Source: Alphaproteobacteria bacterium
Lineage (GTDB): Bacteria > Pseudomonadota > Alphaproteobacteria > SMXP01
Direction: 5' to 3'
Length of the DNA: 64,000 bases
NCBI GenBank assembly: GCA_028285305.1
Contig: JANQPV010000044.1
Coordinates: 310,001 to 374,000, forward strand
Shown here piece after piece: positions 4,108 through 5,728 of this stretch. The stretch's first letter is position 1. The number at the start of each line of letters is the position of its first letter. The notes under the pieces were generated by a model, which saw only the letters and a list, made by a program, of their open reading frames with translations, did no database searches and was not told the DNA's origin. A program made the position numbers and the translations under genes.

Positions 4108-4626
4108 CTAGCGGATCCCGATATTCGCCAGATCGTACACCAAGTCTGATTTGTTCCGTACGCCGATGATCGCGGGGCCTGAATTGGCACGCCAGTCGGT
4201 TTCGACGGGCGTCACGCGGGTCCATTCCGAAGTGCAGGTGCGGTGGAGGATGCGCCATTCGCCGCCGCGCCGCTCGTACTTGTCCAGATACCGGCCGGCG
4301 GAGAGCTGGTCCATGGGTTGTCCGTCCACGTCATAGCGATAGTATCCGGTCCAGTGAAGCTCGCCGGTGGCGGTGTCGCCGTCCACATCAATGAGGAAAT
4401 TCGAGTTGGTGTGGTGGGTGGAGGTCCATCCTTTCAAAAAGCCCATCACCCAGTCGACATACTCGGGCGCCGAGCCTTTAAAGATGCCGTGATCGTCCGT
4501 GCCGTCCGGCCAATAAACGGTTTCGAGAAGCTCTCTGTCCAGACGGTCACAGGCTCTGGAATATGTCCATGACAAGTCCATGATGTCTTGGCGGTCTAGA
4601 AAGACCTCCATGCGTTCGTTAGCCAT
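4108..4626 (-). CDS. SnoaL/NTF2-like domain protein
   Basis: This 172-residue protein has the features of the SnoaL-like cone fold: an N-terminal helix (RQDIMDLSWTYSRACDRLD), a YWPDGTDDHG segment, and a C-terminal strand with GEWRILHRTCTSEW. Members act as small hydroxylating, dehydrating or isomerising enzymes or ligand-binding proteins. An ATG exists 15 bases further upstream, but GGAGGA lies just ahead of the ATG at 4626, so the shorter form is preferred. The gene sits downstream of the broken toxin gene on the same strand. Its substrate is unknown. Confidence 0.8.
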   Translation of the reverse strand: MANERMEVFLDRQDIMDLSWTYSRACDRLDRELLETVYWPDGTDDHGIFKGSAPEYVDWVMGFLKGWTSTHHTNSNFLIDVDGDTATGELHWTGYYRYDVDGQPMDQLSAGRYLDKYERRGGEWRILHRTCTSEWTRVTPVETDWRANSGPAIIGVRNKSDLVYDLANIGIR

Positions 4627-4666
4627 TGCTGCTTCCTCCACATTAAATGGGAACCATAGGTTCTCG

Positions 4667-4945
4667 TTACGGGTATTGTCGGCGTTCGTGCAAGATCGAA
4701 TTGATTTCTATCAGTGTCTCATCCTTTATGCGATAGACTGCAATATACGGTATTCCGGCAATAGAGAATTCTCTAGTGTCCTGCACTCTGCCGGGGCGGC
4801 CGATAAGAGGGAATGTCTCGAGGATTCTTATAGCTTGTAAGATCCGTGCAAGGTACTCATTCGCCTTTGCGGTGCTATATTCCTAAACATACTCGTGGAT
4901 CTTGTCGAGATCTGCGACTGCCGTGGCAGTAAAGCTAATATTCAA
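4667..4945 (-). pseudogene. ParE/RelE-type toxin interrupted by an in-frame amber codon
   Basis: Translating the minus strand from a TTG at 4945 gives a 92-codon ParE/RelE-like frame. It begins NISFTATAVADLDKIHEYV, has FPLIGRPGR in the middle, and ends in the family-typical IPYIAVYRIKD and INSILHERRQYP. Codon 21 is TAG (4883-4885). No frameshift is present, and the remaining 71 codons are open and well conserved in character. The TTG overlaps the last codons of the upstream antitoxin gene, the coupling usual in such operons. A single base change would explain the stop. The product is therefore probably an inactive 20-residue peptide, unless the stop is suppressed or misread. Confidence 0.8.
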
Positions 4946-5120
4946 GGCCGAATCTTTTCCAAACCAGGTGAGACGGAACTGTCATCTCTGGTTGACGGTT
5001 TGCTTCTTTCAAGGCCGCCTCGATCTTCCGTTCTTTCCACTTCAAGTATTCCGCATCCGTGGAGGGTGTTGTCGGCTGAATAAGCTCTTCGAGGCTTGGC
5101 TTGTCTTCGATCTTGCCCAT
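4935..5120 (-). CDS. Antitoxin-like protein of a ParE/RelE-type module
   Basis: This 61-residue acidic/basic protein has a helical centre (AEYLKWKERKIEAALKEANRQ) and a C-terminal segment (VPSHLVWKRFGLEY) like those of small antitoxins paired with ParE/RelE toxins. AAGG lies about seven bases before the ATG. It is 35 bases downstream of coq7 on the same strand and overlaps the toxin frame by 11 bases. It is intact while its partner is broken, which suggests a decaying or disarmed module. No separate DNA-binding domain is obvious. Confidence 0.65.
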   Translation of the reverse strand: MGKIEDKPSLEELIQPTTPSTDAEYLKWKERKIEAALKEANRQPEMTVPSHLVWKRFGLEY

Positions 5121-5155: not shown

Positions 5156-5728
5156 CTAAACCTTCTCCGACACTTTGATGGCAAAGCGGCAGGCGGCTTT
5201 GATGGCGCCGGAGAGGAGCGGATAGCCGGGGGTCTCTTCGGCTCCGCGCTCAAGGGCGGTGGCGCGGTGAGCGGCTTCGTCCTCTCGGAATTCTGAAACC
5301 ACCTCTTTCAGTTCTGGATCTTTGTATGTGTCCAGAGCTTTTTCCTGATCGGCGTAGTGTTCATCGATCACCTCTTCGACGGCGGCCGTGCAGGCCATGG
5401 CGGCCTTCTCGCCCATAAGGGCCGTTGCGGCACCGAGGGCATACCCGGCCGCATTCCAAACGGGCGCAAGCGCGGTGGGGCGGACCCGCCGCTCATTGAT
5501 CAGCCTGTCAAAGGTCTCCAGGTGTTCTTTTTCCTGGTCGGCCATGTGGCGGATTTCTTTGGCCGTGCCCCTAGTGCGGGCTCTGTTCTTGAACACCGCC
5601 ATTTGACCTTTGTAGATCTGAACGGCCCCGTACTCACCTGCATGATCCACACGGATCATTTCCTCAAGCCGCTTTTCGGTCGAAACACCGGGGAGTTGAT
5701 CTCGCGTGATCTTCTTTCGCTCTACCAT
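5156..5728 (-). CDS. coq7: Demethoxyubiquinone hydroxylase (Coq7 family)
   Basis: The protein has 190 residues, normal for Coq7, a ferritin-like di-iron monooxygenase that hydroxylates demethoxyubiquinone late in ubiquinone synthesis at the membrane face. The di-iron ligands are visible as Glu32 (HAGEYGA), Glu66 with His69 (QEKEH), Glu118, and Glu151 with His154 (EAAH). The hydrophobic helix around residues 88-105 fits membrane association. It lies just downstream of the DsbB-like gene on the same strand. Alphaproteobacteria use either Coq7 or UbiF-type enzymes for this step. Confidence 0.95.
   Translation of the reverse strand: MVERKKITRDQLPGVSTEKRLEEMIRVDHAGEYGAVQIYKGQMAVFKNRARTRGTAKEIRHMADQEKEHLETFDRLINERRVRPTALAPVWNAAGYALGAATALMGEKAAMACTAAVEEVIDEHYADQEKALDTYKDPELKEVVSEFREDEAAHRATALERGAEETPGYPLLSGAIKAACRFAIKVSEKV

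Follow-up and report, generated by a model that had tools for sequence, protein, structure and literature searches.

The window, a stretch of 64,000 nucleotides, carries a small toxin–antitoxin pair whose toxin frame is interrupted by a stop codon. The question is whether this module has lost its toxin and kept the antidote, or whether the stop is an error or a codon that is still read. A preliminary description had reported an amber codon at toxin codon 21 beside an open antitoxin frame. Direct reading of positions 4667–5120 confirmed both, and placed the two frames on the minus strand, which that description had not given. The features of the locus are as follows.

5120–4935, minus strand: antitoxin gene, 61 aa, ATG start, intact (ORF reading)
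4667–4945, minus strand: ParE/RelE-superfamily toxin frame, 92 codons plus TAA, a pseudogene by one nonsense codon (ORF reading, PF05016)
4883–4885, minus strand: in-frame TAG, toxin codon 21, with 71 codons remaining after it (direct reading)
4935–4945, minus strand: 11-base overlap of the antitoxin end and the toxin start (sequence reading)
5156–5728, minus strand: coq7-like gene, 35 bases upstream of the antitoxin, context outside the module (named from its translation)

The toxin frame and its relatives

The toxin frame starts with TTG at 4943–4945, codes from 4945 to 4670 and ends with TAA at 4667–4669. Read with X at codon 21, it matches the Pfam profile ParE_toxin (PF05016) from position 1 to 89 of 89 with 64 bits (E 2e-17; cut-off 23 bits), and the profile TIGR02385 (RelE/StbE) with 34.3 bits (cut-off 27.9). 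Given these two matches above their cut-offs, the resemblance is not due to chance. The end-to-end match also bears out the earlier statement that the frame stays open for 71 codons beyond the TAG and keeps its family motifs; the TAG is the only lesion in the frame, and every motif 3' of it is retained. By whole-domain match above the curated cut-off the frame belongs to PF05016; it is not an open frame able to yield the toxin, given the TAG at codon 21 and no CTA-anticodon tRNA found. Among solved structures, it matches the ParE chains of 5cw7/5czf and the RelE/StbE toxin of 7etr (E 7e-7 to 5e-5), whose genes are intact, whereas the window frame carries the TAG. The source genome holds five other ParE copies, and one further match to the toxin query, 32% identical, was found in it.

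A search with the antitoxin over 385 genomes gave matches in four other genomes of the class, three of them directly upstream of a ParE frame (L011, L012 and L013; 50%, 39% and 32% identical, respectively); the fourth (L014), a weak match inside a long frame, was left out of the count. In L012 and L013 the pair is intact, and their toxins are 50% and 43% identical to that of the window. In both, the TTG start of the toxin overlaps the antitoxin stop as it does here. The locus thus has the type II layout of a small antitoxin gene overlapping its toxin gene, here by 11 bases, and the overlap described previously as normal proves to be shared by homologous pairs elsewhere. The position aligned to codon 21 is G in L012 and A in L013, a sense codon in each, indicating that the residue is not conserved. 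In L011, from the same class, an intact antitoxin stands beside a toxin whose match ends after 49 residues. Across these four pairs, the antitoxin is open in 4/4 and the toxin broken in 2/4. No close relative of the locus was found in the collections searched.

The window antitoxin has no match above threshold in Pfam or NCBIfam, and its three homologues have none in Pfam; the searches thus linked it neither to ParD nor to another named antitoxin family. When aligned, the four antitoxins form a family of about 61–65 aa with a conserved Y-L-x-W and a C-terminal W, for which Pfam has no entry. This antitoxin family without a database name, now with four aligned members, is a side result of the study. 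No second copy of the antitoxin was found in the source genome. That the antitoxin protects against the other ParE toxins of its own genome was considered and rejected, given the five other copies, the sole further query match at 32% identity and an antitoxin without paralogue.

To place the interruption among similar cases, we assembled the stop-bearing matches of two PF05016 scans together with those of G417 and G487 from another search. One locus, L102 (G084), was left out: its stop falls where the domain ends and is probably the natural terminus. This left six unrelated ParE genes as comparators (L047, L103, L104, L105, L106 and L107), which come from five other genomes and are interrupted by an in-frame stop. 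In all of them (6/6) the gene is preceded by an open ORF whose size and position are those expected of an antitoxin gene. Such a recurrence makes a broken toxin behind an open antitoxin-sized frame an ordinary pattern. Among the roughly 150 best matches listed in each of the two family-wide scans, five and two had an in-frame stop, the window included both times, which gives a rough rate of at most a few percent of the matches listed.

In the window as in each comparator, the stop falls within about codons 14–30 of the toxin (n = 7, a small sample, with the interval chosen post hoc). Alignment by eye puts three of these stops at a conserved Tyr codon, which a single change can turn into a stop. 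An alignment of 31 homologues predicts that about 36% of nonsense mutations would fall in codons 1–31. An artefact of search detection was rejected as the source of this clustering: scores for pieces of intact homologues indicate that late breaks should be about as detectable as early ones. Selection for antitoxin-only modules, or for toxin at very low readthrough doses, would offer an alternative to mere decay as the cause of these early stops; in our judgement it is very improbable.

Translation at the TAG

tRNA genes were typed with ARAGORN on 44 of the 46 tRNA-family matches, spread over 44 loci of a genome that is 95% complete. A CTA anticodon occurs in none of those typed. This is strong but not absolute evidence, given the completeness of the genome, and it answers the call of the preliminary description for a check on suppressor tRNAs; recoding through such a tRNA was accordingly rejected. 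The RNA around the TAG shows no unusual fold (z -0.28), in agreement with the earlier remark that nothing nearby hints at recoding. Restart 3' of the TAG was also rejected, as no later in-frame start yields the whole domain. As a separate observation, locus L087 (G000:C43:11150-11550) holds three adjacent tRNA-Leu genes with anticodons gag, cag and taa. At 75–77 bases they are shorter than the genome's other tRNA-Leu genes (85–87 bases), have lower family scores and perhaps lack the long variable arm.

A low dose of full-length toxin made by reading through or recoding the TAG would agree with the complete preservation of the frame beyond it, and a stop codon with G as the next base can leak to some extent, which counts for this reading. 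However, neither the tRNAs recovered nor the RNA structure lends it a means, the two intact relatives carry a sense codon here, and among the comparator genes the stop is variously TAA, TAG or TGA and differs in position. We therefore regard readthrough as extremely improbable.

Genomic site

The coq7-like gene is part of a conserved HNH/coq7/dsbB synteny, with gene names taken from reading the translations. In the family relatives G001 and G003, the HNH endonuclease gene and coq7 are adjacent, with no toxin–antitoxin pair between them. The G+C content of the module is 0.47–0.49, against 0.54–0.61 for the flanking genes, which fits acquisition. Judged from gene order and base composition, acquisition of the module by the source lineage would be the simplest reading of the site. 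Next to the module is an ORF of 177 aa with a SnoaL-like look (4108–4641). G003 has no such ORF between HNH and coq7, and here it may have come with the module or on its own. A plasmid origin was rejected, no plasmid matching the locus DNA or the antitoxin, as were a viral origin, the antitoxin having no match in viral contigs, and membership of a defence system, with no PADLOC match.

Discussion

These results lead us to propose a putative course of events. The locus is very probably a horizontally acquired chromosomal type II module whose toxin was later lost by a single nonsense mutation at codon 21. Initially, a module of a ParE-family toxin and a small unnamed antitoxin would have been acquired between conserved housekeeping genes. 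Afterwards, the nonsense mutation would have abolished the toxin. Initiation at the TTG would now give only a peptide of 20 residues, and the later start codons lie too far 3' for a whole domain, so that no active toxin is expected. The antitoxin is still encoded, and is probably transcribed by readthrough from coq7. Its retention can be understood from the asymmetry of the two losses: the antitoxin cannot be lost without harm while the toxin is alive, but the toxin can be lost at no cost. The antitoxin frame has most likely stayed open for one of three reasons: it does no harm, it was orphaned only recently, or it is of slight use. The first description, of a toxin silenced by one nonsense codon while its antitoxin remains whole, is upheld by the intact orthologous pairs, the six like comparators and the lack of a TAG-reading tRNA among those typed. 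That the loss was recent is plausible, as may be judged from a single lesion and the retention of all downstream family motifs.

Two further explanations have to be weighed against decay of the toxin. If the stop were a base-call or assembly error, the pair would be intact in the organism. The lesion is indeed a single substitution in an otherwise well-kept frame, as a base-call error would also give, and the assembly consists of 77 contigs. On the other hand, single-base errors within one given gene of 92 codons are rare a priori, and other genomes repeatedly show in-frame stops of this kind, in every case behind an open ORF the size of an antitoxin gene; we consider an error unlikely. The antitoxin might instead be retained to neutralise ParE toxins that arrive on plasmids or phages. 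Such anti-addiction has been proposed for orphan antitoxins and demonstrated for CcdA of Erwinia chrysanthemi (PMC7354431, PMC7192599), and orphan antitoxins are abundant in Klebsiella, with 2253 occurrences (PMC7192599). The intact ORF, with the W/Y/L positions common to its relatives conserved, would suit this role; however, an antitoxin orphaned only recently would appear intact in any case. Moreover, searches of plasmids and viral contigs found no related antitoxin, and the genome has no second copy. The earlier suggestion of an anti-addiction antitoxin kept by the host thus gained no positive evidence, and we hold it to be quite unlikely.

In summary, decay of the toxin accounts best for this locus, and the case is an ordinary one with published precedents. 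Chromosomal toxin–antitoxin systems are known to decay by deletion or nonsense mutations (PMC7167474), and the window adds one more example in which the toxin is the first to go and the antidote stays. Two systems cited in PMC7354431 come close to it. In the parDE locus of Caulobacter crescentus, where parE is a pseudogene, a ParE-family toxin has likewise decayed and left the antitoxin mateless; that antitoxin is a named ParD, whereas the family of the window antitoxin is small and has no match in Pfam. In yacAB of Shigella flexneri, the yacB toxin is broken by a premature stop beside an intact antitoxin, much as in the window; there the lesion is a frameshift on a plasmid, whereas here it is an in-frame nonsense codon on a long contig of chromosomal type.
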